Of a stretch of DNA of 64,000 nt, positions 3,877 to 35,667 are shown in pieces (the stretch's first letter is position 1; every line of letters begins with the position of its first letter). Both the position numbers and the translations under genes were made by a program. This stretch comes from Hyphomicrobiales bacterium (lineage in GTDB: Bacteria; Pseudomonadota; Alphaproteobacteria; Rhizobiales; Beijerinckiaceae). A model generated the notes under the pieces. It was given only the letters and a program-made list of their open reading frames with translations. It had not been told where the DNA came from and made no database searches. The stretch covers positions 124,001-188,000 of the forward strand of contig UBNE01000028.1 of assembly GCA_900466745.1 (NCBI GenBank), read 5' to 3'.

Positions 3877-4221
3877 TTAAGGGCTCAGATCAGTATGCTG
3901 AAATCATATTGTAATTTCAAGTATATAGATGTTCGCAGTTTTGTCCTGAATGGCGCGCCAACCAAGAGACTCTTGCGAGGACCTCTTGCTGGCCCGAGAG
4001 GCTTCGCCCGGTTTTCCCCTCCGTCATCATCAGGCGCCTGCGCCGCCCCAATTGATCCGGGCGACTTGCCGTGGCGGCAAGACGGCCGGCGGCGGGGCCT
4101 GCAGGCCCACTCGTTGATTGCGGACTTCGGAGCGGCGAGAGCAGGGCAGGGGCGTCGATCGCGCCGGGCTTGCCCGCGCTGCCGGGCCGCGCGCCCGGCA
4201 TGAGGCGCCGCTGCCGGGGCG
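3877..4221. other. Intergenic region, no gene recognised
   Basis: About 345 bases lie between the IS3 element and the end of the asparagine synthetase homologue. The first 80 bases next to the IS are AT-rich and the rest is GC-rich. Several frames are open across it, but none gives a protein I recognise or a convincing ribosome binding site. No repeat, RNA gene or clear terminator was seen. Confidence 0.5.
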
Positions 4222-20526: not shown

Positions 20527-20546
20527 CGGACGCGCTCCTCCTCAGC

Positions 20547-21323: not shown

Positions 21324-22159
21324 CAGCGCAGCTCCCCGGTCGCGACCATGTCCATGTCGGTGTAGTCGACATTGTCGCCGCCCATGCCCCAGATGAAGGA
21401 ATAGGCGCGGGTGGCGACGCCGGAATGGATCGACCAGCCGGGAGAGAGGATCGCCTGCTCATTGGCGACGACGAGGTGGCGGGTTTCCTGCGGCTCGCCC
21501 ATCAGATGGAAGACGCGGGCATCGGCGGCGAGGTCGAAATACAGATAGATCTCGCAGCGCCGGTCATGGGTATGCGCCGGCATCGTGTTCCAGATGCTGC
21601 CTTCCTCCAGCGTGGTCACCCCCATCACGAGCTGGCAGGTCTCGCAGACGCCCGGGATGATGTACTGGCGGATGACGCGCTTGTTGGCGGTGGCCTGCTC
21701 GCCCAGCGCGATGGTCTTGGCCTCGGCCTCTCGGATCACCCGCGTCGGGTGCGCGGCATGGGCCGGCGTCGAAAGCAGGTAGAACTTGGCCGGGTCGTCG
21801 TCGTCGTCGCTGGCGAAGGAGACCTCGCCGGCCTCCTTGCCGACATAGAGCGCGTCGCGCTTGGCCAGCGCATGGTCCTTGCCGCCGACCGTGACCTTGC
21901 CGGGCCCGCCGATATTGACGACGCCGAGCTCGCGCCGCTTCAGGAAGGCGTCGGTGCCGACCGCCTTTGGGGTCGGCAGCACGACGGCGCCGGCCGTCGG
22001 CATGGCGCCGCCGACGATGGCGCGGTCGAGATGGCTGTAGGTCAGCCTGACCTCGCCGGGCACGAACAGGGTTTCGATCAGGAAATGCCGGCGCAGCGCC
22101 GCGGTGTCGAAATGCTTCACGGCTTCCGGGTGTGAAACCTGGCGAATATCGATGGTCAT
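21323..22159 (-). CDS. kduI: 5-dehydro-4-deoxy-D-glucuronate isomerase, 278 aa
   Basis: This is a bicupin protein of full family length. Metal-ligand pattern PAHTHDRRCEIYLYFDL, plus HLMGEPQETRHLVVANEQA and WSIHSGVATRAYSFIWGMGG, are diagnostic for KduI. It isomerises 4-deoxy-L-threo-5-hexosulose uronate (from unsaturated uronates of pectin, hyaluronate or similar polymers) to 3-deoxy-D-glycero-2,5-hexodiulosonate. The start (MTIDIRQVSHPEAV) overlaps the end of the GntR gene by four bases, which couples enzyme production to its likely regulator. Confidence 0.94.
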   Translation of the reverse strand: MTIDIRQVSHPEAVKHFDTAALRRHFLIETLFVPGEVRLTYSHLDRAIVGGAMPTAGAVVLPTPKAVGTDAFLKRRELGVVNIGGPGKVTVGGKDHALAKRDALYVGKEAGEVSFASDDDDDPAKFYLLSTPAHAAHPTRVIREAEAKTIALGEQATANKRVIRQYIIPGVCETCQLVMGVTTLEEGSIWNTMPAHTHDRRCEIYLYFDLAADARVFHLMGEPQETRHLVVANEQAILSPGWSIHSGVATRAYSFIWGMGGDNVDYTDMDMVATGELR

Positions 22160-22914
22160 GTGGTCTCCAGTCGGGTGTTCGGCTGAGGGGAGCGACGTGG
22201 CCGCTCCGAGCCTTCGCCCATGTCGAAATAATGCTGGTTCAGCTCCGCCACGGCGGCCAGGTCGTCGGACAATTTGCCGAGATGCTCGCCGATGGCGCGG
22301 GCGGCCGCATCGGCGTCGCCCCGGCGGATCGCCGCGAGCACCGCGCCGTGCTCGGCGAGCACGCGCTCCATGCGCCCCTGCTGGGGCAGGGTCAGGCGGC
22401 GGAAGCGGTCCATCTGCAGCTTGACCTGCTGGGTGAAGCGCCAGATCCCCGGATGGCCGGCGAGCGCGGCGATGCCGGCATGGAAGGCGTCGTCGGCGCG
22501 GTGGAAGAGCTCGCGGTCGCCGCGCGCGGCCAGCCCGGCCATGTCGTCCATGATCCGCGCCAGCGGGTCGGCGAGGCCGGCGCCGCGTTCGGCCGCGAGC
22601 CGGGCGCAGGTTTCCTCCAGCGCGCGGCGGATGATCAGCGCCTCGGGCAGGGTCCGGAACGGGATCAGCGCCGCGAAGGTGCCGGACTGCGGAAAGATCG
22701 AGACCAGCCCTTCATCGGCGAGCTTCAGCAGCGCCTCGCGGACCGGGGTGCGGCTGACCGAATAGGCTTCCGCGATCTCCTTCTCGGAGATCGGCGCGCC
22801 CGGCGCGATGGTCAGCGAGACGATCTCCGCCCGCAGCGCATCGCGGATGATCGAGGCGGCTGTCCGCCGCCCGGCCGCGCTGGTCCCTGCAGCGATCTTG
22901 CTGCCGATGGTCAA
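22156..22914 (-). CDS. GntR-family regulator with FCD domain, 252 aa
   Basis: Residues about 17-85 form a winged helix-turn-helix (ISEKEIAEAYSVSRTPVREA is the recognition part) and about 95-225 an FCD ligand-binding domain with conserved His/Asp positions (FHRADDAFHAGIAALAGH). Start is TTG: the frame has no upstream ATG, no nearby downstream ATG, and GGGAGG stands seven bases before the TTG. It is the first gene of the kduI-kduD-transporter-aldolase unit. UxuR/KdgR-like members of this family repress uronate genes until a pathway intermediate binds. A palindrome at 22950-22963 is its likely operator. Confidence 0.88.
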   Translation of the reverse strand: MTIGSKIAAGTSAAGRRTAASIIRDALRAEIVSLTIAPGAPISEKEIAEAYSVSRTPVREALLKLADEGLVSIFPQSGTFAALIPFRTLPEALIIRRALEETCARLAAERGAGLADPLARIMDDMAGLAARGDRELFHRADDAFHAGIAALAGHPGIWRFTQQVKLQMDRFRRLTLPQQGRMERVLAEHGAVLAAIRRGDADAAARAIGEHLGKLSDDLAAVAELNQHYFDMGEGSERPRRSPQPNTRLETT

Positions 22915-23311: not shown

Positions 23312-24025
23312 TCACGCCTTGTTCGGGGGGTCCGGCAGGATGTAGATGCCGGACAGCGGCTCGATCCAGGCGAGCTGGTCCTTGACGCCCTTGACCCCCG
23401 GAACGTTCTCGGCGGCGACGCGGGCGGCGTCGCGCGCCCGTTCGTCGAAGATCGCGCCGGAGAGCTCGGCGATCCCGTGATCGACATCGACCCGGATGGC
23501 GTTGGACCAGGGCTGCTTCGCCAGCTCCTCGGCGATCGCCCGGCGGATGCGCTCGTCGTCGTTGGCGGCGGGAGCGGAGGCGGGGATGGAGCGCAGCATG
23601 GCGCGCATCAGATCCGACCGCGCCACGATGCCGACGAGCTTGCCCTTGTCGACGACCGGCACCCGCTTGATCTTGCGGGCGATCATCAGCTCCACCAGGT
23701 CCGCGAGCGAGGCTTCGGCCGAGATCGTCACCGGCTCGGCGGTCATCACCTCCTCGACCTTGCGGCCATGGGACTGGACGTATTCCGCCGCGTCCTTGCC
23801 GGGGCTGATGAAGAACTGCAGCCATCGCGGCCGCCTGCGGGCGGTGCCGAGTTCGCCGCGCCGCAGGAAATCGCCCTCCGTCACGATGCCGACAAGATGC
23901 CCGTCGCCGCTGACCACGGGAAGGCCGCTGATATGGTTGCCCAGCATCAGCTTGACGGCATCCTCGACCGAGGCGGAAGGCTCGACCCCCACCACCGGCG
24001 AGGTCATGATTTCTGAGACGCGCAT
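23312..24025 (-). CDS. CBS-pair and BON domain protein, 237 aa
   Basis: Two CBS motifs (residues about 1-60, VSEIMTSPVVGVEPSASVED; about 88-148, VEEVMTAEPVTISAEASLAD) are followed by a BON domain at about 158-225 (IRVDVDHGIAELSGAIFDER). CBS pairs bind adenine nucleotides and BON domains are linked to membranes or stress. There is no signal peptide. CBS-BON proteins of this layout are common next to universal stress proteins and PHA genes in alphaproteobacteria. The exact role is unknown. The gene starts with ATG; GAGGATCGAC is upstream as a binding site. Confidence 0.85.
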   Translation of the reverse strand: MRVSEIMTSPVVGVEPSASVEDAVKLMLGNHISGLPVVSGDGHLVGIVTEGDFLRRGELGTARRRPRWLQFFISPGKDAAEYVQSHGRKVEEVMTAEPVTISAEASLADLVELMIARKIKRVPVVDKGKLVGIVARSDLMRAMLRSIPASAPAANDDERIRRAIAEELAKQPWSNAIRVDVDHGIAELSGAIFDERARDAARVAAENVPGVKGVKDQLAWIEPLSGIYILPDPPNKA

Positions 24026-24139
24026 GTCGATCCTCCGGACAGCCTGCTGATTTCAAACGTCGAACGGTACAAGGCCGGGCCGCTGCCGGGCGTTCGCGCG
24101 ATCCTGCCGATCGGGTCGAAAGGCCGGAGCGGGCCGGGT

Positions 24140-24376
24140 TCAATCATCATCGTTCCCCCGGCGGCCGCCGTCCAAGGGAATCCAGCGATCGCCGGCCTTG
24201 GCATAGGAGCGCTTGACCGCGGCCCAGGCGATGCGGTGGGCGGTCTCCTCGCGACCGGGATCGGCGGCATGGGCGGCGAAGGCATGGTTGAAGGCCGCGC
24301 GGTAGATATCCTGCGCATGCGTCGGCAGGTGGCCACGCACGGAGGGCGGCAGATCGGCATTGCTCGCATAGGGCAT
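24140..24376 (-). CDS. chaB: ChaB family protein, 78 aa
   Basis: The start giving MPYASNADLPPSVRGHLPTH is chosen because the family begins exactly here; the frame extends upstream without similarity. The conserved ChaB core is complete: LPPSVRGHLPTHAQDIYRAA, then ETAHRIAWAAVKRSYAKAGD and RWIPL. ChaB was first described as a regulator of the ChaA cation/proton antiporter in E. coli. In alphaproteobacteria it occurs in stress clusters. The acidic tail GRRGNDDD ends the protein. The gene starts next to, and pointing away from, a broken GNAT sequence. Confidence 0.88.
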   Translation of the reverse strand: MPYASNADLPPSVRGHLPTHAQDIYRAAFNHAFAAHAADPGREETAHRIAWAAVKRSYAKAGDRWIPLDGGRRGNDDD

Positions 24377-24701
24377 CGAGGACATCCTCCAGCTCGGACG
24401 CCGCTGCGTCCATGGCGATGGGCGCGCCTCCTCGGCTGACATCCGCCTGGCCTGCGACGACGCCTCGCAGAAAGGCGAGGTGGCGATCTCGATCCGCAGC
24501 GAGCACAAGCACAAGGGCACCGGCTGGGAGATGCTCGGCTATGTCTGCGAATCGGCTCGGGCCAGGGGTGTGAAGGTCATCGAGTCCCTCGAGGACCGCC
24601 GGAATCGCGAGGCGATCGAGATCGAGCGGGAGCAGGGCCTCGAGGTCGAAGACTGCCCCGACGACGCCCGTCTCGTCATCGTCAGAAAGACGCTCGGATA
24701 G
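24372..24701 (+). pseudogene. C-terminal remnant of a GNAT acetyltransferase
   Basis: From about 24423 the frame reads ADIRLACDDASQKGEVAISI, then RSEHKHKGTGWEMLGYV with the GNAT acetyl-CoA loop (K-x-K-G-x-G) and an end resembling the last third of Pat-type protein acetyltransferases. An in-frame stop (24369-24371) precedes it and no plausible start or binding site is present. The first two thirds of a GNAT fold are missing. A GTG at 24480 could give 73 residues, but these would lack most of the fold. It lies back to back with chaB. Confidence 0.65.
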
Positions 24702-24800
24702 CGCCGGGGCGCGGCGGGCCGGGAGGGTCCGCCGCTTCGGCCGGGCGAGATCATCGCGCATCCTTCGGACGCGGTAACAATGATCCATCTCATTGCTGGT

Positions 24801-24846
24801 GCATCGGATTTTTTGGAAAAGTGGATTCCTCCTTTGGGTCCGATGC
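24801..24846. repeat. 46-bp palindromic intergenic repeat, copy A
   Basis: The element begins GCATCGGAT and ends TCCGATGC, and its arms can fold on each other. Copy B at 32584-32629, read on the opposite strand, has the same length and aligns over its full extent; a more diverged copy C is at 60094-60140. It lies immediately downstream of the universal stress protein gene (two bases after its stop), where it may act as a transcript end. Confidence 0.75.
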
Positions 24847-24847
24847 T

Positions 24848-25738
24848 TTAGTGGGCGAGAAGGAGCGGCACGGGGGAGCTTTCGAGCAGGTCCGCGGTCA
24901 CGCCGCCCAGCACCCATTCCCGGAAGCGCGAATGGCCGTAGGCGCCGACCACGATCAGGTCCGCGGAGATCCTGCGCGCCTCGGCGAGGATGGCGTCGGT
25001 CGCGGTGGTGTCCGTGTTCAGCACGGTCGCCGTCGCCTCGACGCCGTGGCGGGCGAGATGGGCGCTGATGTCGGCGAGGACTTCGGCGCCGCCCATCCGG
25101 CCATGGGCCTCCTCCCTGACCGCGACGACATGGACCTGCGTCGCCTGCGCGATCAGCGGCAAGGCCTCGGCCACGGCCCGGGCGCTCTGGCGCGTATCCG
25201 TCCATCCGATCAGCACGGTCCGGACCGGCGCGCGCGGCGCGGCTTCGGGCGGCAGCAGGTACAGCCCCCGGCCTCCGTCGAACATCACGCTCTCGATCAG
25301 GGGGCGCCAGCGCGCCTGGTCCTCGTCGCGCGGGCAGCTCGCGACGAACAGGTCGTTCCAGCGCGCCTCGGTGGCGACGGCCTGCTCGAGAAGGCCGGGG
25401 AAGGCGTCGAGGCGGCGCAGCTCATGCGCGGGGCCGAGCCGGGTCAGCCGCTGGCGCAGCCGCTTCTCGCTGGCGTCTCCTTCCTCGGTGACGGCGTCGA
25501 CCAGTTGCCCGATCGCGGTGATGCCGAAATCGCCGGCGAAAAGAGCGGGGTCGGGCAGGAGATTCGTGAAGATCCCGGTGATGCGCGCGCCATGCTGCTC
25601 TGCCAGCGCTTCGGCATGGGCGAGGCGCGCCTCGTCTTCCGGCGAGCCGTCGAGATGGACCGCGATGTCGCGATAGGCCGTGCCGCGAAGGGCCAGCGCC
25701 TGTGCCGCGCCGCCCGGGGAGAGAGTGCTGCCGTTCAT
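24848..25738 (-). CDS. Universal stress protein with two Usp domains, 296 aa
   Basis: The start giving MNGSTLSPGG has a GGAGG binding site; an upstream ATG at 25816 would add 26 residues and cross the FixK-like box. Two tandem Usp domains are visible: residues about 24-150 (YRDIAVHLDGSPEDEARLAH) and about 170-296. The second keeps the ATP-binding signature G-x2-G-x9-G-(S/T) in GAYGHSRFREWVLGGVT; the first lacks it. Such tandem Usp proteins are induced by oxygen limitation or stationary phase. It is divergent to the alcohol dehydrogenase gene and shares its promoter region. Confidence 0.9.
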   Translation of the reverse strand: MNGSTLSPGGAAQALALRGTAYRDIAVHLDGSPEDEARLAHAEALAEQHGARITGIFTNLLPDPALFAGDFGITAIGQLVDAVTEEGDASEKRLRQRLTRLGPAHELRRLDAFPGLLEQAVATEARWNDLFVASCPRDEDQARWRPLIESVMFDGGRGLYLLPPEAAPRAPVRTVLIGWTDTRQSARAVAEALPLIAQATQVHVVAVREEAHGRMGGAEVLADISAHLARHGVEATATVLNTDTTATDAILAEARRISADLIVVGAYGHSRFREWVLGGVTADLLESSPVPLLLAH

Positions 25739-25802
25739 GCCGACCTCCGCGTCGATGGCTGCTCTTGCGCCGCTATCGAGCGACGAAACCGGGCGGGCCA
25801 CA

Positions 25803-25816
25803 TTGATTTCCGTCAA
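25803..25816. promoter_or_regulatory. FixK/FNR-like box between universal stress protein and alcohol dehydrogenase genes
   Basis: TTGATTTCCGTCAA fits TTGA-N6-TCAA, the palindromic site of FNR/FixK regulators (rhizobial FixK2 consensus TTG(A/C)-N6-(T/G)CAA). It lies 65 bases before the stress protein start and 95 bases before the alcohol dehydrogenase start, suitable for activation in one or both directions under low oxygen. Confidence 0.65.
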
Positions 25817-25911
25817 ACGGCACGGGATCTGCGGCCGTTTTGCGCTGAATCAATGCAGCCGCGCGGTTTTTCGGCAAGCTGGCACGATCTCGACGATTTC
25901 GGAGAGCGATC

Positions 25912-27045
25912 ATGTCACCTGTGTTTCAATCCGATGTGCGGTCCGCGCACGAGACGCGGCGGATGAGCCGACCCAAGATGATGTGCGCGGCGGTGTTCGC
26001 GGAGCCCGGCCGCATCGAGCTCGAGGACAAGCCCGTCCCGGAGGTGGGGCCGCTCGACGCGCTGCTGCGTATCACCACCACGACGATCTGCGGCACCGAC
26101 ATCCATATCCTCAAGGGCGAGTATCCCGTCGCGCGCGGCCTCACCATCGGCCACGAGCCGGTGGGCGTGATCGAGAAGCTCGGCTCGGAGGTGAAGGGCT
26201 TCCAGGAAGGGCAGCGGGTGATCGCCGGCGCGATCACGCCCTCCGGGCACAGCGCCGCCTGCCTCTGCGGCTGCGCCTCGCAGGACGGGCCGGGCGAGCG
26301 CCACGGCTTCAAGGCCATGGGCGGCTGGCGCTTCGGCAACACCATCGACGGCGCCCAGGCCGAATATCTGCTGGTGCCGGACGCCATGGTCAATCTCGCG
26401 CATGTGCCCTCCGGCCTGACAGACGAGCAGGTGCTGATGTGTCCCGACATCATGTCGACCGGCTTCTCCGGCGCCGAAAGCGGCGGGGTCAAGATTGGCG
26501 ATTGCGTCGCCGTCTTCGCGCAGGGGCCGATCGGGCTTTGCGCCACGGCCGGCGCCCGGCTGATGGGCGCGACGCGGATCATCGCGGTGGAGAGCGTGCC
26601 GGCGCGGCAGGAGGTGGCGCGCCGGCTCGGCGCCGACGAGATCGTCGATTTCTCGAAGGGCGACCCGGTCGACGAGATCATGCGGCTGACCGACGGAAGG
26701 GGCGTCGACGTCGCGATCGAGGCGCTCGGCCGCCAGGAGACCTTCGCCGCCGCGCTGCGCGTGCTGCGGCCGGGCGGGACGCTGTCCTCGCTGGGCGTCT
26801 ATTCGAGCGACCTGACGATCCCGCTCGGCGCCTTCGCGGCGGGGCTCGGCGACCACCGCATCGTCACCACGCTCTGCCCCGGCGGCAAGGAGCGGATGCG
26901 CCGGCTGATCGACGTCGTCGCCTCCGGCCGGGTCGATCTGGAGCCGCTGGTGACGCATCGCTTCCCGCTCGAGCGCATCAAGGATGCCTATGAGCTGTTC
27001 GCCCATCAGCGCGACGGCGTGCTCAAGGTGGCGATCACGCCTTGA
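25912..27045 (+). CDS. Zinc-dependent alcohol dehydrogenase (secondary ADH-like), 377 aa
   Basis: This is a medium-chain dehydrogenase with catalytic zinc ligands Cys in ICGTDIHILKGE, His-Glu in GHEPVGVIE and Asp in CPDIMSTGFSGAE; the last resembles the secondary alcohol dehydrogenases of Clostridium and Thermoanaerobacter. A Rossmann part follows (VAVFAQGPIGLCATAGARLM). The start at 25912 is preceded by GGAGA; a second ATG 17 codons later is possible. It interconverts an alcohol and an aldehyde or ketone with NAD(P)H, probably balancing redox under oxygen limitation. The mgtA gene begins 93 bases downstream in the same direction. Confidence 0.88.
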   Translation: MSPVFQSDVRSAHETRRMSRPKMMCAAVFAEPGRIELEDKPVPEVGPLDALLRITTTTICGTDIHILKGEYPVARGLTIGHEPVGVIEKLGSEVKGFQEGQRVIAGAITPSGHSAACLCGCASQDGPGERHGFKAMGGWRFGNTIDGAQAEYLLVPDAMVNLAHVPSGLTDEQVLMCPDIMSTGFSGAESGGVKIGDCVAVFAQGPIGLCATAGARLMGATRIIAVESVPARQEVARRLGADEIVDFSKGDPVDEIMRLTDGRGVDVAIEALGRQETFAAALRVLRPGGTLSSLGVYSSDLTIPLGAFAAGLGDHRIVTTLCPGGKERMRRLIDVVASGRVDLEPLVTHRFPLERIKDAYELFAHQRDGVLKVAITP

Positions 27046-27138
27046 ACGTCCGGGCCGTTCGGCCCACAACATGGATCTGGCGCGCCGCTGAGACGGGATC
27101 GTGACCGTGGTCGACGGACGCATCGGCGGGAGCCCGGA

Positions 27139-29736
27139 ATGACCATGGAACCCGCCAAGGCGGGCGCGGCCGGCGACGGGGAGTTCTGGCACGAGGGCCG
27201 GAACGCCCTGCTGCGCCGCCTCGGGACGAGCGCGGACGGGCTGAGCGGCGAGGAGGCGGCCGAGCGCCTGCGCCGCTGCGGCCCCAATGTCGCCGTGACC
27301 AGCCTGCGGCGCGGCCTGCTCTTCAAGATCGCCCGGCGGCTCGTCGAGCCCCTGATCGCGATCCTGCTGATCGCCGCGCTGATCTCGGGCGCCACGGGCG
27401 ATTGGCAGAGCCTGGTCATCATCGTCGTCATCGTCCTGGCGTCGATCGCCCTCGATGTCTTCCAGCAGACCGAGGCCGAGAACGCCGTCGACGCGCTGCG
27501 GCGCACCGTTGCGGTCGAAGTCACGGCCCTTCGCGGCGGCAAGCCCGTCGAGATCCCGGTGCGGGAGGTGGTGGCGGGAGACGTGGTCGCGCTTCACGGC
27601 GGCGACCTGATCCCGGCCGACGGGCTGATCCTGGAAAGCCATGACGCGATGGCCGACGAGGCCGTGCTCACCGGCGAGCCCTTTCCGGTCGAGAAGCTGG
27701 CGGCTCCCTCCGATCCCGGCGGCGGGAGTGCCGATGCCGCGCTGTTCGGCGGAACGAGCCTGGTCGCCGGCACGGTGCGGATGCTGGTGGTCGCGACCGG
27801 CGCCGACACCAGGCTCGGCGCGATCTCCCGCTCGATGCAGGCCAGCGAGCCGCCGACCGCCTTCGAGCGCGGCGTCCACGGGCTCGGGATGCTGATCCTG
27901 CGCCTCACCGGCTTCCTGGTGCTGTTCGTCCTGCTGACGCAGCTCGTGCGCCAGGGGCTGTCGATCGAGAGCTTCCTGTTCGCCGTGGCCCTGGCGGTGG
28001 GGCTGACGCCGGAGCTGCTGCCGGTGGTGATGACGGTGACGCTCGCCCGCGGCGCCCTGCGGATGGCGCAACGCAAGGTCGTGGTGAAGCGCCTCTCCGC
28101 GATCCACGACCTCGGCGCCATGGACGTGCTTTGCACCGACAAGACCGGAACGCTGACGGAGGCGCGGATCGCCCATGTCGGCAGCTTCGGCTGCGACGGC
28201 TCGGACAGCGCCCATGTCACCGCGCTCGCCCGCCTGAACAGCCGCTTCTGCAGCGGGCTGCGCAACAATCTCGACGGTGCCCTGCTCGCCGCCGCGGCAG
28301 AGGATGACGGGGCCTGGCGCCCGCTGGCCGACCTGCCGTTCGATTTCCAGCGGCGCCGCTCCTCGGTGCTGGTGGCGCGGGGCGACGAGCGGGAGATGGT
28401 CGTCAAGGGCGCTCCGGAGGCGCTGCTCGCCCTCTGCGACCGGTTCGAGCGGGCCGATGGCGGCGTCGAACCGCTGGACGACGCCGGCCGGGGCAGGATT
28501 CTCGCCCTCTTCGAGGCCAAGGGAGCGGAAGGCCTGCGCCTGCTCGGCGTCGCCCGCCGCACGATGCCGCCGGGAACCGGAGAGCTGCGCCGGGAGGACG
28601 AGGCCGGGCTGGTCTTCGCCGGCTGCGCCGCCTTCATCGATCCGCCCAAGGCCTCCGCCGGTGAGGCGATCCGCCAGCTCGCGCAGGCCGGCGTGCGGGT
28701 CAAGGTCATCTCGGGAGACGCCGCTCCGGTCGTCCGCCATCTGGCGGAGAGCCTGGCCCTGCCGGCGCGGGGCCTGATGACCGGGGACGAGATCGCGGCG
28801 CTCGGCGATTCCGCGCTGAGCTCCCGCGTCCGCCATGTCGACCTGTTCGTCCGGGTCGCTCCCGAGCAGAAGGCGCGCATCGTGCTGGCGCTGCGCCGGG
28901 CGGGCCACACCGTCGGCTTCATCGGCGACGGCATCAACGACGCGCCGGCGATCCATGCCGCGGATGTCGGCCTCTCGGTCGAGGGCGGCACCGAGGTGGC
29001 GCGCGAGGCGGCGGCGATCGTCCTGCTCGCGCCCGATCTCGGCGTCCTGGCGCAGGGCATCGCCGAGGGCCGGCGCACCTATGCGAACATCATGAAATAT
29101 GTCCGCATGGGCACGAGCTCGAATTTCGGCAACATGCTCTCGATGGCGCTGGCCTCGATGGTGCTGCCGTTCCTGCCGCTCAATCCGCTGCAGATCCTGG
29201 TCAACAACATGCTCTACGACCTCTCAGAGGTCGGCATCCCCTTCGACGAGGCCGATCCCGGCGACCTCGCGAAGCCGCAGCACTGGGACATGCGCGCCGT
29301 GCTGCGCTTCACCCTCGTCATGGGACCGCTCTCCTCGGTCTTCGACGCGGTGACCTTCGCGGTGCTGCTCGGCGTCTTCGGCGCCGGCGTCGAGATGTTC
29401 CGGACGGCCTGGTTCGTCGAATCGATCCTGACCCAGATCCTGGTGATCTTCGTCATCCGCACGGCGGCGCCGTGCTGGCGCAGCCGGCCGCATCGCTTGC
29501 TCGTGCTGACCTCGCTCGGGGCCCTCGCCGCCGCGCTGATCCTGGCCCTCACGCCGCTCGGCCATCCCTTCGGCTTCGTGGCGGTGCCGGGGCCCGTCCT
29601 GCTCTCGATCCTGGCGATCGCGGCCTGCTATCTCGTGCTCGCCGAGCTGCTGAAGCCTCTGGCGATGCGGGCGGCCAGGGGCCGGGGAGCGGCAGGCAGC
29701 CACCGCCCCGGTGCGGGCCGCGCACGCGCCTTCTAG
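27139..29736 (+). CDS. mgtA: MgtA-type (P3B) Mg2+-transporting P-type ATPase, 865 aa
   Basis: The P-type ATPase motifs are LTGEPFPVEK (actuator), LCTDKTGTLTEARI (phosphorylated Asp) and FIGDGINDAPAIHAADVGLS (hinge). MgtA-specific blocks are GLTPELLPVVMTVTLARGA, LSAIHDLGAMDVL and NNMLYDLSEVGIPFDEADP. It imports Mg2+ across the inner membrane with ATP. Length is slightly short of E. coli MgtA (about 900), mainly at the N-terminus. The stop TAG (29734-29736) falls on the CTAG target of the adjoining IS5-family copy, so the extreme C-terminus (after LAMRAARGRG) may have been changed by the insertion. All ten membrane segments seem present. Confidence 0.88.
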   Translation: MTMEPAKAGAAGDGEFWHEGRNALLRRLGTSADGLSGEEAAERLRRCGPNVAVTSLRRGLLFKIARRLVEPLIAILLIAALISGATGDWQSLVIIVVIVLASIALDVFQQTEAENAVDALRRTVAVEVTALRGGKPVEIPVREVVAGDVVALHGGDLIPADGLILESHDAMADEAVLTGEPFPVEKLAAPSDPGGGSADAALFGGTSLVAGTVRMLVVATGADTRLGAISRSMQASEPPTAFERGVHGLGMLILRLTGFLVLFVLLTQLVRQGLSIESFLFAVALAVGLTPELLPVVMTVTLARGALRMAQRKVVVKRLSAIHDLGAMDVLCTDKTGTLTEARIAHVGSFGCDGSDSAHVTALARLNSRFCSGLRNNLDGALLAAAAEDDGAWRPLADLPFDFQRRRSSVLVARGDEREMVVKGAPEALLALCDRFERADGGVEPLDDAGRGRILALFEAKGAEGLRLLGVARRTMPPGTGELRREDEAGLVFAGCAAFIDPPKASAGEAIRQLAQAGVRVKVISGDAAPVVRHLAESLALPARGLMTGDEIAALGDSALSSRVRHVDLFVRVAPEQKARIVLALRRAGHTVGFIGDGINDAPAIHAADVGLSVEGGTEVAREAAAIVLLAPDLGVLAQGIAEGRRTYANIMKYVRMGTSSNFGNMLSMALASMVLPFLPLNPLQILVNNMLYDLSEVGIPFDEADPGDLAKPQHWDMRAVLRFTLVMGPLSSVFDAVTFAVLLGVFGAGVEMFRTAWFVESILTQILVIFVIRTAAPCWRSRPHRLLVLTSLGALAAALILALTPLGHPFGFVAVPGPVLLSILAIAACYLVLAELLKPLAMRAARGRGAAGSHRPGAGRARAF

Positions 29737-30267
29737 GCGGTAGTGGCGATTGAAGGAATTGGGATTCCTAGGAGGGTGCCAATCAGCTTCAACGCTGATT
29801 TTGGAGATCGGCGATGGATTGCGATGCGCTTCGGGACGATCAGCGGGAGCGGATCAAGGGTTTGTGCCTGGCGGTCGCAAGGGCAAGCGCGGCCCGCGCA
29901 CCGACAACCGCAAGTTCCTCGACGCGCTGTTGTGGATGGCGCATTCAGGCGGCCGTTGGCGCGATCTGCCGGAGCGGCTTGGCGACTACCAGTCGGTGAA
30001 GCGACGTTACCATCGCTGGATCGCTATGGGCGTTCTGGACGACATGCTGGCCGCATTGGCCCGCGGACGTCGATCTGGAATGGCTGATGATCGACTCCAC
30101 CATCGTGCGCGCCCGCCAGCATGCGGCCGGGGCAGGCAGGGTCAAAGGGGGGCCCAAGATCCACGCCGCCAGGAGCGAAATCGGATCGAGCGCTTCTTCG
30201 ACAGGCTCAAGCAGTTCCGAAGGGTCGCAACACGATACGACAAACTCCTCGCCAACTTCATGGGCGA
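29736..30267 (+). mobile_element. IS5-family (IS427-like) insertion sequence, decayed copy 1
   Basis: The left end begins GGCGGTAGTG right after CTA, as expected for insertion at CTAG. The transposase frame starts at 29814 (MDCDALRDDQRERIKG) but is dead for three reasons. One T is missing from the run at about 29871 compared with copy 2 (GGGTTT against GGGTTTT). A stretch is deleted after AAAGGGGGGC. The middle is deleted up to the C-terminal RNRIERFFDRLKQFRRVATR. The right end is lost after LLANFMG, where an alcohol dehydrogenase fragment begins. Copy 2, inverted, lies at 34824-35356. Confidence 0.85.
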
Positions 30268-30367
30268 TCGCGCAGGCCTCGACCCTGACGCGCAATTCGC
30301 CGGCAGCGGGGACGGGGTCGGAGCGCAGTTCCGCGACCAGCGGCCGGCCCGGAGCGTGCAGAACCAT
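30268..30367 (-). pseudogene. N-terminal fragment of a zinc-dependent alcohol dehydrogenase
   Basis: Read leftwards from 30367, the frame gives MVLHAPGRPLVAELRSDPVP and continues AAGELRVRVEACA, the standard N-terminus of zinc alcohol dehydrogenases. It breaks off where the IS5 copy begins, before the first zinc ligand. Two codons upstream the expected start of a longer MKAMVLHAPG form reads TAG-AAG-GCG. Only about 33 residues remain, so no product is expected. It shows that the IS interrupted or deleted a second alcohol dehydrogenase gene here. Confidence 0.75.
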
Positions 30368-30426
30368 CGCCTTCTAATTCTCCGGTCAGCGCGCCTCGAA
30401 AATACCGGCGCGACGCGGTATCGGCT

Positions 30427-30440
30427 TTGATCGAGCGCAA
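30427..30440. promoter_or_regulatory. Possible FixK/FNR-like box before the PHA polymerase gene
   Basis: TTGATCGAGCGCAA fits TTGA-N6-GCAA, allowed by the rhizobial FixK2 consensus but weaker than the box at 25803. It is 31 bases before the ATG at 30471 (55 before the alternative at 30495), so an activator here would need a very short leader. Confidence 0.4.
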
Positions 30441-30470
30441 GGAGCGTGCCGCTTTCGGAGGGCATGGTCG

Positions 30471-32291
30471 ATGAAGGTCCCGAAGGAAGAAACCATGCAT
30501 TCGTCGCCACGATCCGGCCTGACTGCGAAAGGCTCCGCGCAGCAACCCTGCCGGGAGGAGACGCTCGGCGAGGAGGCCTTCGCGGCGATCGACCGCCTCC
30601 GCGAAGCCGCCAGCGCGAAATTCACCGGGGGGTTCTCGCCGACCGCCCTGGCGCTGGCCTATCTCGACTGGGCCATCCATCTGGCCTCCGCCCCGGGCAA
30701 GCAGCTCGAGCTCGCCAGCAAGGCGGCGCGCAAGGCGGCCCGCCTGGGAGGGCACGCCCTGGCGGGCGCTTTCCAGGAGGATGCCGATCCCTGCATCAGG
30801 CCGCTGCCGGGCGATCGCCGCTTCGCCGCGCCGGAATGGAGCAGGCAGCCCTTCAGCCTGATGGCGCAGGCCTTCCTGCTCAACCAGCAATGGTGGCACA
30901 ACGTCACCCATGAGGTTCCGGGCGTGGAGCGCCATCACGAGGAGGTCGTCTCCTTCGTGGCCCGGCAGATCCTCGACGTCTTTTCGCCCTCGAACAATCC
31001 GCTGACCAACCCCGAGGTGATCGAGCGCGCCCGCGCGACCGGCGGCGCCAATTTCATCGAGGGCTGGAGGAACTGGGCCGAGGACTGGCGGCGCCAGCTC
31101 GCCGGGCAGCCCCCGGTCGGCGCCGAACGCTTCGTCGTCGGCCGCGACGTCGCGGCGACGCCCGGCAAGGTCGTCTTCCGCAACCATCTGATCGAGCTGA
31201 TCCAGTACGCGCCGACGACGCCGAGCGTCCATGCCGAGCCGATCCTGATCGTGCCGGCCTGGATCATGAAGTACTACATCCTCGACCTGTCGCCGGAGAA
31301 TTCGCTGGTGCGCTACCTCGTCGGCGAGGGGTACACGGTCTTCTGCATCTCCTGGCGCAATCCCGACGCCGACGACCGCGACCTCTCCCTGGAGGATTAC
31401 CGCCGCAGCGGCGTCCTCGCCGCGCTCGACGCGATCGCGGCGATCGTGCCGGGGGCGAAGGTTCACGCCGCCGGCTACTGCCTGGGCGGGACGCTCCTGG
31501 CGATCGCCGCGGCGGCGATGGCGCGCGACCGCGAGGAGCGGCTGGCTTCGCTGACCTTCCTCGCGGCGCAGACCGATTTCAGCGAGCCGGGCGAGCTCGC
31601 CCTGTTCATCGACCCGAGCGAGCTGCGCTTCCTCGACAGCATGATGTGGAACCGCGGCTATCTTTCGTCCGACCAGATGGCGGCGGCCTTCCAGCTCCTG
31701 CGCTCGAACGACCTGATCTGGTCGCGGCTGGTGCGCGACTACATGATGGGCGAGCGCTCGCCGATGTTCGACCTCATGGCCTGGAACGCGGATTCGACGC
31801 GGATGCCCTACCGCATGCATGCGGAGTATCTGCGCAGCCTCTATCTCGACAACGATCTGGCGAGCGGCCGCTTCATGGTCGAGGGCCGGCCGGCGGCGCT
31901 CCAGAACATCCGCACGCCGATCTTCGGGGTCGCGACGGAAGCGGACCATGTCGCTCCCTGGCGTTCCGTCCACAAGCTGCACCTGCTGACCGACGGCGAC
32001 CTCACCTTCGTGCTGACCAGCGGCGGGCACAATGCCGGCATCGTCAGCGAGCCGGGCCACGCCGGCCGGCACTACCGGAGCCTGCGCAAGCGGCATGGCG
32101 ACGTCTGTCTCGGCCCGGACGAATGGTTCGCCATGGCCCCGGTGCGCGAGGGCTCGTGGTGGCCGGCCTGGGCGGAGTGGCTTTCCGGCCTGTCCTCGCC
32201 GGAGCGGGTCGCGCCGCCCGCCATGGGCAATGCGGCGCGCGGCTGCGAACCGCTCTGCGACGCGCCCGGAACCTATGTGCTGCAAAGATGA
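30471..32291 (+). CDS. phaC: Poly(3-hydroxyalkanoate) polymerase, class I-like, 606 aa
   Basis: An N-terminal PhaC domain (residues about 60-230, QPFSLMAQAFLLNQQWWHNV) is followed by an alpha/beta-hydrolase core. Catalytic Cys is in HAAGYCLGGTLLA (GxCxG box), Asp in TEADHVAPW and His in GGHNAG. The enzyme joins (R)-3-hydroxyacyl-CoA units into polyester granules. Start is ATG 30471; the ATG at 30495 has a closer AGGAAG site and may be the real start. A phasin gene lies 0.5 kb downstream on the other strand, and a MaoC-type remnant follows directly. Several alphaproteobacteria carry such an extra polymerase in stress/low-oxygen clusters. Confidence 0.9.
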   Translation: MKVPKEETMHSSPRSGLTAKGSAQQPCREETLGEEAFAAIDRLREAASAKFTGGFSPTALALAYLDWAIHLASAPGKQLELASKAARKAARLGGHALAGAFQEDADPCIRPLPGDRRFAAPEWSRQPFSLMAQAFLLNQQWWHNVTHEVPGVERHHEEVVSFVARQILDVFSPSNNPLTNPEVIERARATGGANFIEGWRNWAEDWRRQLAGQPPVGAERFVVGRDVAATPGKVVFRNHLIELIQYAPTTPSVHAEPILIVPAWIMKYYILDLSPENSLVRYLVGEGYTVFCISWRNPDADDRDLSLEDYRRSGVLAALDAIAAIVPGAKVHAAGYCLGGTLLAIAAAAMARDREERLASLTFLAAQTDFSEPGELALFIDPSELRFLDSMMWNRGYLSSDQMAAAFQLLRSNDLIWSRLVRDYMMGERSPMFDLMAWNADSTRMPYRMHAEYLRSLYLDNDLASGRFMVEGRPAALQNIRTPIFGVATEADHVAPWRSVHKLHLLTDGDLTFVLTSGGHNAGIVSEPGHAGRHYRSLRKRHGDVCLGPDEWFAMAPVREGSWWPAWAEWLSGLSSPERVAPPAMGNAARGCEPLCDAPGTYVLQR

Positions 32292-32430
32292 GCCCTGGCT
32301 CGGGACCTTCCCCCGACCCGCCTCTTCGACGAGATCGCCGTCGGCGACGGCGCATCGCTGGTCCGCACGGTTCGGCCTGACGACATCGAGCTGTTCGCCG
32401 CCGGTCTCGGCCGTGCCCGGCGCCCGCATG
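32292..32430 (+). pseudogene. N-terminal remnant of a MaoC-type (enoyl-CoA hydratase/phosphotransacetylase) gene
   Basis: Directly after the phaC stop, in the same frame, come FDEIAVGDGASLVRTVRPDD and IELFAA, the start of MaoC-domain proteins such as bifunctional enoyl-CoA hydratase/phosphate acetyltransferases. The natural start would be the ATG overlapping the phaC stop (ATGA, 32288-32291), but that ATG is one base out of frame with the remnant. Similarity stops at about 32400, where the rest of the gene is deleted. It is a broken former operon partner of phaC. Confidence 0.6.
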
Positions 32431-32583
32431 CCGATCGTCCCGGCGAGCCGGGCCGCGTCCCGGAAGACGCCGATCGCCTCGGCCGCTCCGGCGAAGCTCG
32501 TCGCCGCCCCTCGCCAGCCCCTGACGACGCCGTCCGGGCCGGGCGCATGCCAGCTCGGGCGAGCTTCCGGCCGGACCGCCATG

Positions 32584-32629
32584 GCATCGGACCGAAAAGG
32601 GGAATCCGCCCTTCGGAAAGATCCGATGC
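32584..32629. repeat. 46-bp palindromic intergenic repeat, copy B
   Basis: It begins GCATCGGACCGAAAAG and ends GATCCGATGC. It is the inverted counterpart of copy A (24801-24846), and both arms can pair in each copy. It lies in the non-coding stretch between phaC and the phasin gene. Confidence 0.75.
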
Positions 32630-32732
32630 AACTGCAGGCCGATAGGTCACCGCGGCCGCGTCCTGCCGGATGCGCGGCGATCTGGAACGTGCTGCGTTTT
32701 GATGGAAACGCGGGTCACCCGGACGCAGCGAT

Positions 32733-32797
32733 CCGGGATCCATGCCTGAGCCTCGATCGCAAGCGCTCCGGCATGGATCCCGGGTCAAGCCCGGGAT
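32733..32797. repeat. Double hairpin repeat downstream of the phasin gene
   Basis: GGGATCCATGCC (32735-32746) pairs with GGCATGGATCCC (32770-32781). A second perfect stem, ATCCCGGG (32777-32784) with CCCGGGAT (32790-32797) and loop TCAAG, overlaps it. The motif ATGGATCCCGGGTCAAGCC is of the kind dispersed in rhizobial intergenic regions. It could end the phasin transcript from the right. Confidence 0.6.
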
Positions 32798-32829
32798 GAC
32801 CGCGTGGTTCCGCGTCACATCAGCATGCC

Positions 32830-33231
32830 CTAGGCTGCGGCCTTCTGGTTGCCCGTCCAGCCCGATACATATTCGGCGCCGACCCCGGTCCAGGCATCCA
32901 TATTCCTGCGGGCGAGCGTCGACAGCCTCTCGGCCTCGTCCGCATAGGCGCCGCTGACGCCCTTGGCGAAATCCTGCTGGACGTCGACGGCCTGGCCGAT
33001 CTCCTTGCAGCGGCCGAGCCTGGCGCAGAGCTCCGCCTGGGCCTGCATCCGGCGCCCCATGAAGGCCAGGATCTCGGCGGTGACGGCGAACTGGGTCTCC
33101 CAGATCGTCTGCGGCAGCACGGCCGCCGAGGCGAGCTGCGCTTTGACGATCTGCATGCCTTCGTCGACCATGGCGGTGGTGCCGATCCGGTCCGTGGCGA
33201 GAGCGTCGGAGACAGGTTTCGTCGTAGGCAT
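32830..33231 (-). CDS. Phasin family protein, 133 aa
   Basis: The start giving MPTTKPVSDALATDRI has a strong AGGAGG site. The protein is a helical amphipathic phasin (KAQLASAAVLPQTIWETQFA, QAVDVQQDFAKGVSGAYADE, with NMDAWTGVGAEY near the end), without signal peptide. Phasins coat polyhydroxyalkanoate granules and control their size and number. Pairing with the nearby PHA polymerase supports this. A FixK-like box lies 73 bases upstream of the start, in the region shared with the Nudix gene. Confidence 0.85.
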   Translation of the reverse strand: MPTTKPVSDALATDRIGTTAMVDEGMQIVKAQLASAAVLPQTIWETQFAVTAEILAFMGRRMQAQAELCARLGRCKEIGQAVDVQQDFAKGVSGAYADEAERLSTLARRNMDAWTGVGAEYVSGWTGNQKAAA

Positions 33232-33303
33232 GAGAACCTCCTGAATTGTCTCAGCCGCCTGACTGCGGCGATGGGAGTTTCCCAGGCCTGCGCCGCCCGG
33301 TCC

Positions 33304-33317
33304 TTGACACAACGCAA
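33304..33317. promoter_or_regulatory. FixK/FNR-like box between phasin and Nudix genes
   Basis: TTGACACAACGCAA fits the rhizobial FixK2 pattern TTGA-N6-GCAA. It lies 73 bases before the phasin start and 26 before the Nudix start. The first distance suits activation of the phasin promoter; at the second it would sit near or over the promoter. Confidence 0.5.
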
Positions 33318-33342
33318 ATTCGGGCGTCGGCGGAGATTTTTT

Positions 33343-33831
33343 ATGGTTCCTCGCAGTGTCGGCATCCTGCTCTATCGCCTCGGCCGGGACGGAGCCGAAG
33401 TGCTGCTCGTGCATCCGGGCGGCCCGTTCTGGCGGCGTCGGGATTGTGGCGCCTGGTCGATTCCGAAGGGCGAGCCGCTGGCGGGCGAAGCCGCCGCGGA
33501 CACCGCGCGGCGGGAGTTCGCCGAGGAATTGGGAAGCGTGCCCGAGGGGCCGCTCGTTCCGCTCGGGCGAATACGGCAGCGGGCGGGAAAGATCGTCGAA
33601 GCCTTCGCGCTCGAAGGCGATCTCGACGCGGAAAACCATCGCTGCAGCAGCATCGTCGAGCTCGAATGGCCGCGGGGCAGCGGCCGGATCCAGCGCTTTC
33701 CCGAGATCGACCGCGCGGCATGGTTCCCGCTGCCCGAGGCGCGGCTGCGCATCCTGGCGGGGCAGAACGCCTTCCTCGAGCGCCTCGAAACCTGCGGCTT
33801 GACGAAGGCGCCTGGCCGGCCTCCGGCCTGA
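33343..33831 (+). CDS. Nudix hydrolase, 162 aa
   Basis: The start giving MVPRSVGILLYRLG has GGAG about nine bases upstream. The Nudix box G-x5-E-x7-R-E-x2-E-E-x-G is complete in GEPLAGEAAADTARREFAEE followed by LG. The N-terminus (SVGILLYR, VLLVHPGGPFW, GAWSIPKGE) matches a group of Nudix proteins often annotated as NTP pyrophosphohydrolases related to diadenosine polyphosphate hydrolases. It probably cleaves a nucleoside diphosphate-linked metabolite; the substrate is unknown. It is divergent to the phasin and ends in front of a strong hairpin. Confidence 0.85.
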   Translation: MVPRSVGILLYRLGRDGAEVLLVHPGGPFWRRRDCGAWSIPKGEPLAGEAAADTARREFAEELGSVPEGPLVPLGRIRQRAGKIVEAFALEGDLDAENHRCSSIVELEWPRGSGRIQRFPEIDRAAWFPLPEARLRILAGQNAFLERLETCGLTKAPGRPPA

Positions 33832-33907: not shown

Positions 33908-34391
33908 TCAGGCCACGGCGAGATGGTCCTCGACCACGCTGACGCCGGGGGCGGCCCAGGCGGCCCGCTCGGCGAGCACGCGTTCGCGCCAGGATTTCAC
34001 CTTGCCTTCGAGCGTCACCCGTCCGCCCGACACCACCACGCGGATCTGGTTGGCCTCGAACTCCGCGTTGCGCTTCGCGTCCTCTATCCCGTGCTTGACG
34101 TCGTCGGCTTGGATGGCGGGCTTGATGGTGATGGCGTTGGCGATGCCGACGACGCCGGAGAGCTTCCGGACGGCGGCCTCGGCCGCGCTGCTCTGGAAAT
34201 ACCACGGCACTTCGCCGGTCAGGGTGACCTCAGCTCTTCTGGACCTTGAGCCGGACCTTGCCGTCGGGGATGGTGGTGTCCCATTCGATGATCTTGAGCG
34301 CCCGCTGCGCGATCTCGTCATCATTGGTCTTCTGGTCGGAAGGCCATCGCACCTCGACCTCCTGGGCGATCGCCCTGCCCCCTTTCACGCG
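33908..34391 (-). pseudogene. BON-domain (OsmY-like) protein gene, truncated and frameshifted
   Basis: The 5' part reads VKGGRAIAQEVEVRWPSD and then IAQRALKIIEWDTTIPDGKV followed by RLKVQKS and a stop. After one extra A (in AGCTGAGGTC, about 34231) the next frame continues without a gap as VTLTGEVPWYFQSSAAEAAV and a further BON repeat ending VSVVEDHLAVA. Removing the A restores KSWVTLTGEV, the family consensus. The first BON repeat is also missing beyond 34391. A shortened product from an internal start is possible but unlikely to work. Confidence 0.75.
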
Positions 34392-34824: not shown

Positions 34825-35356
34825 CGTTGCGCTGGCCGGGCGAGGCGATCAGGCGAACGGAAAGGCCAAGCGCCTCGGTGGCGGCGTGGATCTTGGTACT
34901 CAGGCCGCCGCGAGACCGGCCCAAGCCCTGGGCATCCGCCCCCCTTTGACCCTGCCTGCCCCGGCCGCATGCTGGTGGGCGCGCACGATGGCGGAGTCGA
35001 TCATCAGCCATTCCAGATCGGTGTCGCGGGCCAATGCGGCCAGCATGTCGTCCAGAACGCCCATCGCGATCCAGCGATAGTAACGTCGCTTCACCGACTG
35101 GTAGTCGCCAAGCCGCTCCGGCAGATCGCGCCAACGGCCGCCTGAACGCGCCATCCACAACAGCGCGTCGAGGAACTTGCGGTTGTCGGTGCGCGGGCCG
35201 CGCTTGCCCTTGCGACCGCCAGGCACAAAACCCTTGATCCGCTCCCACTGGTCGTCCCGAAGCGCATCGCAATCCATCGCCGATCTCCAAAAATCAGCGT
35301 TGAATCTGATTGGCACCCTCTTGGGAATCCCGATTCGTTAAATCGTCACTACCGCC
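34824..35356 (-). mobile_element. IS5-family (IS427-like) insertion sequence, truncated copy 2
   Basis: The outer end (35349-35356, CTACCGCC) abuts TAG, recreating the same CTAG junction seen at copy 1. Sequence is nearly identical to copy 1 over the shared 5' part but in the opposite orientation. The transposase is intact to IHAATEALGLSVRLIASPGQ plus RNE and then stops at the fusion with the aldo/keto reductase fragment, so the 3' end and last part of the DDE domain are gone. It cannot transpose on its own. Confidence 0.85.
34900..35316 (-). pseudogene. IS5-family transposase, first part (orf1) of a truncated element
   Basis: The frame gives MDCDALRDDQWERIKGFVPG from an internal ATG at about 35277 and ends RVKGGRMPRAWAGLAAA. 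A run of G (AAAGGGGGGC) just before the end is a likely -1 frameshift site, after which the second frame continues QGLGRSRGGLSTKIHAATEA. DDE catalysis needs the missing 3' part, so no working transposase is expected. Confidence 0.75.
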
Positions 35357-35667
35357 TAGCCCAGCGAGGCTATGGTCCCTCGGCCTCGCCCTGACCTTGG
35401 CGCAGCGAGCGGACCTCGCGCGCTCGTTTTGACGGCAATCGGTTAGCAATGCGCGGAAGCTCCTGAATGCTTCTGTATCGCGGCCGGGAGCGACGGTCAA
35501 AACAGTTTCAATGTTGCTCGAGCGATTGCAACCGCTGTCGGAAACGTAGCGCCAGTCGCGGACTTTAGTCCCTCCCAAAAGCCGCCCTCCCGAACTGCTT
35601 CCGGACCTCGGTCTTTCGCCCGCAAACCGCCGCTCAATCGCGGAAGGAGCCGACAGGGCAGCGACAG
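35357..35667. other. Intergenic region, no gene recognised
   Basis: Right of the IS5 copy lie 311 bases up to the end of the acetoacetate-decarboxylase-like gene. A minus-strand frame of 125 codons runs across most of it and into the IS, but it has no family I recognise and uses IS sequence for its end. It is probably residual sequence from an older rearrangement. Confidence 0.5.

Follow-up and report, generated by a model that had tools for sequence, protein, structure and literature searches.

A candidate low-oxygen FNR regulon around a second PHA synthase gene in a Bosea species

Results

FNR-type boxes in a stress, dehydrogenase and PHA synthase cluster

The window analysed here is a 64,000-nucleotide stretch (G000:C53:124001-188000) of a 4.49 Mb draft genome in 73 contigs, the genus of which we treat as Bosea. 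It contains a gene cluster that, from left to right, encodes a CBS-BON protein (- strand), ChaB (-), a universal stress protein (USP; -), a zinc-dependent dehydrogenase (alcohol dehydrogenase, ADH; +) and a magnesium-type P-type ATPase (+), followed by a remnant of an IS5-family insertion sequence, the polyhydroxyalkanoate (PHA) synthase PhaC (+), a phasin-like protein (-), a Nudix hydrolase (+), a BON-domain protein (-) and a second IS5 copy (Table 1). The subject of this report is the set of FNR-type boxes within this cluster, their conservation and the regulator that may read them.

An earlier note had named three sites fitting the loose motif TTGMN6KCAA, at 25803, 30427 and 33304, and all three are present, in position and in letters. 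The motif matches five times in the window, however, the added sites being 25840 (TTGCGCTGAATCAA) and 34793 (TTGCGCGATAGCAA). The note's estimate of about one match by chance agrees with ours: 1.78 from shuffling, or 1.38 per 64 kb at the density of the 97 sites in the genome. Five sites were reached in 4 of 100 shuffles, the Poisson probability of at least five in 64 kb at the genome density is 0.014, and random placement of the 97 loose sites brought five of them together in a 9-kb stretch in 106 of 20,000 trials. The site at 34793, which lacks a TTGAY half-site and has an IS5 copy about 130 bases away, was rejected as a functional box and is probably a chance match.

The strict box, TTGAYN4RTCAA (TTGAYNNNNRTCAA), is far rarer, with five places in the genome and two for the reversed control. 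As assigned from open reading frame (ORF) position and Pfam, these are ccoN, cydA, ompW, ackA and the USP/ADH pair. The ccoN box belongs to a COX1-type oxidase gene that is followed by cbb3-like genes (those named by eye); the called ORF is extended at its 5' end and includes the box, which is about 160 bases ahead of a likely start. The cydA box lies between the gene for cytochrome bd subunit I and that of a divergently oriented ABC transporter, and the ackA box is about 120 bases ahead of a likely acetate kinase start. The one-sided form TTGAYN4CGCAA, for which the reversed control of the strict form does not count, occurs at 11 places in the genome, three of them within the cluster. Of these 16 strong sites, four fall in 25803-33317 (7.5 kb), as happened in 7 of 200,000 trials of uniform placement, a guide figure since the strong forms were defined after the sites were seen. 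A 14-mer with the letters of the phaC box also occurs at G000:C19:85849 (L047:5850), 89 bases before an ORF for coproporphyrinogen III oxidase (PF01218).

Box positions relative to the target genes

A box centred near -41.5 is expected to lie 21-22 bases from the -10 hexamer. At this spacing, hexamers with A2 and T6 of TATAAT, which are candidates only, are found for ADH (CAAGCT, 25875-25880), phaC (CATGGT, 30463-30468) and phasin (GAAACT, 33281-33276), and the USP hexamer is CTCGAT. The four boxes thus appear to be positioned as for an FNR activator. The 25803 box would be centred at about -41.5 for a USP transcript starting near 25768, with translation likely from the ATG at 25738; the alternative TTG at 25816 falls within the box itself. 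The 25840 box seems best placed for ADH, and the Mg-ATPase gene, 93 bases downstream of ADH, is probably on the same transcript. The 30427 box would yield a phaC transcript starting near 30475, translated from the ATG at 30495 (GAAGGAAG upstream; alternative start 30471). The Nudix gene, which the earlier note had counted in the regulon, is an unlikely target for the 33304 box, which is too near it for an activator site: the predicted transcript start, about 33352, would fall after the Nudix ATG at 33343, and the box is therefore assigned to phasin. No motif match adjoins the CBS-BON gene in the window scan with TTGMN6KCAA.

The boxes are conserved in Bosea and distinguish two PHA synthase paralogues

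Among 11 distinct genomes with a USP at least 60% identical to that of the window (L078 and L113-L122; L079 and L118 are one genome, counted once), a strict box close to the start of the USP gene is seen in 10, and in the remaining one, L121, two one-sided boxes take its place. A second, one-sided box lies 36-44 bases from the strict one in 7 of the 11. In alignments of the control regions, invariant columns are concentrated in the half-sites: 17 of 20 versus 38 of 153 flanking columns for USP/ADH (7 loci, p 2.5e-7), 7 of 10 versus 11 of 85 for phaC (8 loci, p 2e-4) and 8 of 10 versus 24 of 99 for phasin (6 loci, p 8e-4), where the p values are guides, as the columns were chosen from the box and the relatives are non-independent. 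The letters of the phaC box vary (TTGATCGAGCGCAA, TTGACCAAGCTCAA, TTGACGTCGATCAA) at a near-constant distance, and other Bosea have a strict box further up. Such changed letters and shifted distance are what would be expected if the site, not the sequence, were under selection.

Whole PhaC matches form two groups, clade A, 48-100% identical to the window PhaC, and clade B, the housekeeping synthases, at 45% or less. A whole clade-A phaC is present in 15 of 37 genomes from the genus of the window, and a broken one in G029. For both clades the region searched began 400 bases above the estimated start and ended where the match starts. The clade-A count of 63 loci in 59 genomes is made up of 18 whole matches of at least 52% (window included) and 45 others of at least 48% among the matches listed; broken fragments in G029, small ones in G016, G031 and G004, and six further clade-A loci were left out. 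The 41 clade-B loci (40 genomes) are part of such matches among those listed and come from genomes that also have clade A. The mean search region was 589 bases for clade B versus 499 for clade A, some being cut by contig ends.

Among these listed matches, a box with at least one full half-site was found at 24 of 63 clade-A phaC loci (strict at 16) versus none of 41 in clade B (Fisher 7e-7), and the loose motif at 26 versus 2. Reversed controls gave 0 and 0 for the strict and 1 and 0 for the loose form in clades A and B, respectively. Within Bosea, 13 of 15 clade-A loci, the window's included, have the box (strict at 8). Six further clade-A loci have it in two cases, both Bosea (G607 and G602), and eight further clade-B loci have neither a strict nor a one-sided box and one loose match.

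Related islands occur beyond Bosea. At 11 loci of Rhodopseudomonas, Afipia, Bradyrhizobium and Mesorhizobium (L159, L162, L165, L169, L170, L172, L174, L176, L184, L186 and L188), a PhaC 56-70% identical to that of the window is accompanied, in about 16-21 kb, by USPs and 2-11 strict boxes; ten of these 11 loci also have CBS-BON proteins and four a P-type ATPase. L188, from Mesorhizobium erdmanii, is the island on a larger scale: its roughly 21 kb contain 11 strict FNR boxes as well as a P-type ATPase, several USPs and a PhaC of 58% identity.

An FnrL-like protein is the candidate regulator

The HTH_Crp_2 profile has 19 matches in the genome, seven above cut-off, four of which span nearly the whole profile. 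In a single one of the 19, G000:C37:76506-77306, does the matched stretch contain E..SR (ETVSRQ, the FNR recognition helix). This protein carries a CASC-X7-C triad (CASCEARHRGIC) and a later Cys (VELC), which we take to be the ligands of a [4Fe-4S] cluster. Its best score among nine models is with NCBIfam FnrL (NF045989), 240.8 bits, and it is called FnrL-like because this is below the cut-off of 300. The region G000:C37:76506-82414 (L040) holds fnrL, a hemerythrin-like ORF (by eye), cydB, cydA and the divergent ABC transporter gene (cydDC-like, by eye), with one strict box.

An FNR match at E of 1e-30 or lower is present in all 13 box-bearing Bosea, and the frames read for 11 of them all contain the Cys triad and ETVSR. 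Presence of the phaC box and of an FNR match at this level are associated in Bosea (Fisher 0.0095). The two Bosea without the phaC box are G003, which has no FNR match at E 1e-20 (a group I query, see below, gives 1.9e-21 at 27%), and G025, with an FNR match of 2.7e-22 (8.4e-27 with the group I query).

A probable low-oxygen regulon and its alternatives

From these sequence features, the cluster is very probably a small low-oxygen regulon of a Bosea species, a soil bacterium, in which an FnrL-like protein would act through four boxes on the USP, ADH, Mg-ATPase, phaC and phasin genes. The FixK/FNR regulon put forward in the earlier note is upheld for USP, ADH (with Mg-ATPase), PhaC and phasin, on the rarity and places of the strict box, the footprints, the paralogue control and the FnrL-like regulator, and loses the Nudix gene. 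The note's further reading, in which reducing power would be stored as polyester and alcohol, is conjectural. As oxygen falls, the FnrL-like protein would keep its [4Fe-4S] cluster and dimerise, and we infer that the dimer binds the boxes at 25803, 25840, 30427 and 33304. Bound there in class II position (about -41.5), the protein would switch on USP, ADH with Mg-ATPase, phaC and phasin, together with the four genes at the remaining strict boxes of the genome, ccoN, cydA, ompW and ackA. Survival under energy-poor, electron-rich, low-oxygen conditions may be aided by the cluster's products: the stress protein, a dehydrogenase linked to NAD(P), and a granule protein alongside the second PHA synthase, which would either make polymer or tune the housekeeping enzyme.

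A variant of this reading concerns the function of one target and is no rival on control: the second PhaC would tune or inhibit the housekeeping synthase, so that the regulon restrains PHA at low oxygen. This is possible but, on balance, doubtful. By analogy, excerpts of work on Bradyrhizobium diazoefficiens report that the FixK2 target phaC2 (bll6073) is inactive alone, with less active heterodimers proposed (PMC10888616), and that a fixK2 mutant accumulates more polyhydroxybutyrate (PHB) (PMC9049629); however, the window PhaC contains the motifs GYCLGG, ATEADH and GGHNAGIV, and loss of Fnr in Herbaspirillum is described, again in an excerpt, as lowering PHB (PMC5862806).

The boxes could also be real but read by another, FixK-like protein of the CRP/FNR family, with oxygen sensed elsewhere, for example by FixLJ. 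ETVSR proteins without the N-terminal Cys triad do lie near the island in eight other Bosea (G001, G002, G004, G015, G016, G017, G602 and G607; loci L331, L332, L334, L335, L336, L337, L338 and L340), but none is found among the 19 HTH_Crp_2 matches of the window genome (a 73-contig draft from which a gene may be missing), in which the one protein with E..SR has the Cys set, and we consider this explanation improbable. Chance matching of a short palindrome beside ordinary stress genes, with the co-location of the boxes a coincidence, fits the genome-wide count of the loose motif and the shuffled windows that reach five sites, but is highly improbable given the footprints at three intergenic regions, the persistence of the box with altered letters, its absence from all 41 housekeeping phaC paralogues among the matches listed, and the rarity of the strict box and the nature of its neighbours.

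Several observations weigh against the proposed regulon. Genome-wide, the loose motif is barely above background (97 versus 85 for the reversed pattern) and is, for this reason, weak evidence by itself. Three of the four window boxes have one imperfect half-site, four of the eight TTGAYN4CGCAA sites outside the cluster sit inside called ORFs, and the regulator misses the FnrL cut-off as given above. The expectation that the sites be kept in relatives having the genes is borne out in Bosea (a box at 13 of 15 phaC loci, a strict one at 10 of the 11 USP loci). It does not hold elsewhere, 11 of 48 clade-A phaC loci among the matches listed having the box (strict at 8), so that the linkage between clade-A phaC and the box is not universal. 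No box was found within 400 bases upstream at four clade-A phaC loci of Bradyrhizobium, Mesorhizobium and Rhodopseudomonas, and the Azospirillum locus L124 (USP, BON, ATPase and PhaC) is without one. The regulator and box are also at times uncoupled: G025 lacks the phaC box despite an ETVSR protein (one with no Cys triad), three genomes outside Bosea (G144, G254 and G318) have the box and no FNR match at E 1e-20, and many genomes outside Bosea with an FNR match lack the phaC box.

Two FNR groups in Bosea and a possible exchange of regulator

Two groups can be distinguished among the Bosea FNR proteins, with 32-37% identity between them: group I, represented by 10 genomes in the tree (60-95% identity), and group II, represented by 3 (74-90%). 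The tree, which leaves out L311 (G386) and L312 (G527), separates group II at 100/100. Group II consists of the window genome, Bosea sp. 67-29 (G607) and Bosea sp. TND4EK4 (G602). Among the 17 Bosea genomes examined that contain a whole clade-A PhaC, 12 have one group I FNR, three group II and two neither. With the group I query, no match in any of the three group II genomes exceeds 41%, compared with 62-100% in ten group I genomes. A group II protein of at least 73% identity is present in 4 of 298 genomes of the family, the window's own included; the fourth, G386, belongs to another genus, also has a 52% group-I-like protein, and its sole PhaC match is 43%.

The group II genomes retain the USP/ADH and phaC boxes. 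The newest point of this analysis is that this lineage has a distantly related FNR yet keeps the boxes. We see about an even chance that the boxes outlived a change of regulator, and that the wiring of the island, with a low-oxygen PHA synthase paralogue at its core, is older and stabler than the protein that reads it. The change would seem to have come about either by transfer or because one of two ancient copies was lost. Against an exchange, the FixK-like ETVSR protein near the island in two of the three group II genomes may have helped to keep the boxes. If the exchange is true, close Bosea species would have the same boxes read by two FNR proteins about 35% identical, a good setting in which to study the way regulons outlive their regulators.

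Relation to known low-oxygen systems

The lxa (low-oxygen-activated) locus of Burkholderia cenocepacia comprises about 50 genes, the DosR regulon of Mycobacterium tuberculosis includes USPs, CBS proteins, a P-type ATPase and storage lipid, and FixLJ is the oxygen sensor of the FixLJ-FixK2 cascade. The comparisons below are with excerpts of the published accounts. For lxa these describe several USPs, a BON protein, phbB and a phosphate acetyl/butyryl transferase, with the FNR/FixK-like regulator BCAM0049 suspected (PMC6127331, PMC3759415), and a zinc alcohol dehydrogenase whose annotation gives threonine 3-dehydrogenase activity (PMC6127331). Judged by gene descriptions, the window has a kit of this kind (USP, BON/CBS, Zn-ADH and PHA genes), along with its own FNR-type boxes, and may be a locus of the lxa type. 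It differs in that lxa is betaproteobacterial, that its excerpts name no PHA synthase, Mg-ATPase or phasin, and that the window version is small and scarred by insertion sequences. The lxa authors already draw the DosR comparison (PMC6127331); the P-type ATPase of the window is of the Mg type.

In B. diazoefficiens, bll6069 (USP), bll6073 (phaC2) and blr6074 (CBS) are close together, induced by microoxia and listed as FixK2 targets in Table 2 of PMC6515984, with the CRP/FNR gene bll6060 nearby and the OmpW gene blr1311 also a FixK2 target (PMC6515984). The grouping of USP, phaC and CBS and the OmpW target are as in the window genome, whereas control there is by the FixLJ-FixK2 cascade. The excerpts contain no ADH/Mg-ATPase module (PMC6515984, PMC10888616). 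Herbaspirillum seropedicae Fnr1 and Fnr3 directly control phaC1, phaC2, a phasin, adhA, cydAB, fixNOP, ompW1 and USPs (PMC5934665), nearly the list of the window genome, and transcripts of phaC2 and phaC3 fall 100- and 60-fold when all Fnr proteins are lost (PMC5862806). Its targets lie in separate operons and separate Fnr groups, however, and it has three Fnr paralogues. In the gammaproteobacterium Pseudomonas extremaustralis, oxygen-sensitive Anr is required for phaC expression and low-oxygen PHB (cited in PMC9049629). Rhodobacter and Dinoroseobacter have an FnrL-type sensor with cbb3 oxidase and USP targets and the box TTGAT-N4-ATCAA, but the main texts do not contain the terms polyhydroxy or phasin (PMC2908626, PMC5398030).

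As Burkholderia lxa, Bradyrhizobium FixK2 and Herbaspirillum Fnr share the kit, this kind of cluster is already known. In the open-licence literature, nothing was found joining Bosea with FnrL, or with microaerobic plus polyhydroxybutyrate. The present analysis offers a testable FNR regulon for Bosea and two PHA synthase paralogues told apart by their control regions.

Cluster genes, insertion sequence remnants and local decay

Table 1 Features of the cluster (window coordinates)
Feature	Position	Strand	Basis and remarks
CBS-BON protein	23312..24025	-	Pfam
Universal stress protein (USP)	24848..25738	-	Pfam PF00582 on ORF 24848-25816
Strict FNR box TTGATTTCCGTCAA	25803..25816		Between USP (-) and ADH (+); 8/10 half-site columns invariant, 7 aligned loci
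One-sided FNR box TTGCGCTGAATCAA	25840..25853		9/10 half-site columns invariant, 7 loci; absent from the earlier note's list
Zinc-dependent dehydrogenase, ADH_N + ADH_zinc_N	25912..27045	+	Pfam; start 25912 or 25963
Magnesium-translocating P-type ATPase	27139..29736	+	TIGR01524, 745 bits (cut-off 610.75)
IS5-family remnant	29733..30153	+	Between Mg-ATPase and phaC; 96% identical to 35359-34938
Stub of second, divergent ADH, 5' end (approximate)	30260..30367	-	ORF 29945-30367 begins like L118:4098-5081, by eye
One-sided FNR box TTGATCGAGCGCAA	30427..30440		Before phaC; 7/10 half-site columns invariant, 8 loci
PHA synthase paralogue, clade A	30495..32291	+	Pfam PF07167, PF12551
Phasin-like protein	32830..33234	-	PF09361, 24.8 bits (cut-off 24.9); TIGR01985, 20.3 bits (cut-off 99.7)
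One-sided FNR box TTGACACAACGCAA	33304..33317		Before phasin (-); 8/10 half-site columns invariant, 6 loci
Nudix hydrolase	33343..33831	+	Pfam; neighbour gene
BON-domain protein	33908..34324	-	Pfam; neighbour gene

The window PhaC scores 533.9 bits with the class I model TIGR01838, below the cut-off of 622.65, and is above cut-off for Pfam PhaC_N and PHBC_N; judged by these profiles, it is a divergent relative of class I PHA synthases. Its three motifs named above are, we presume, the catalytic ones. For the ADH, the nearest NCBIfam models are scyllo-inosose 3-dehydrogenase IolM and L-threonine 3-dehydrogenase, every model being below cut-off. The phasin-like protein misses both of its cut-offs, the PF09361 gathering score narrowly and TIGR01985 by far; its place beside phaC favours the name.

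The IS5-family copies at 29733-30153 and 34938-35359 form an inverted pair that flanks phaC, phasin, Nudix and BON. The 30427 box was considered as part of the left remnant and rejected, as homology to the other copy stops at 30153 and the box is kept in seven other loci. The stub of a second ADH adjoins this remnant, and there the relative L118 has a second ADH gene (ADH_N, 4098-5081), opposite phaC and with the box between them. Directly 3' of phaC and on the same strand, L118 encodes a MaoC-like hydratase fused to a phosphate acetyl/butyryl transferase (772-2175; Pfam), followed by acetate kinase (by eye). The fusion protein may supply hydroxyacyl-CoA and acetyl phosphate. In the window genome, acetate kinase is on another contig (G000:C46:139022; L043:6023), with its own strict FNR box.

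In the Bosea genome G029, the broken clade-A phaC (G029:C11:1289-2218) consists of pieces 71-84% identical, one with a stop, and from its sequence the paralogue is decaying there. At the left border of the window's cluster, 20542-22914 holds sugar-acid genes (KduI-like, KduD-like and a GntR-type regulator, all by eye).

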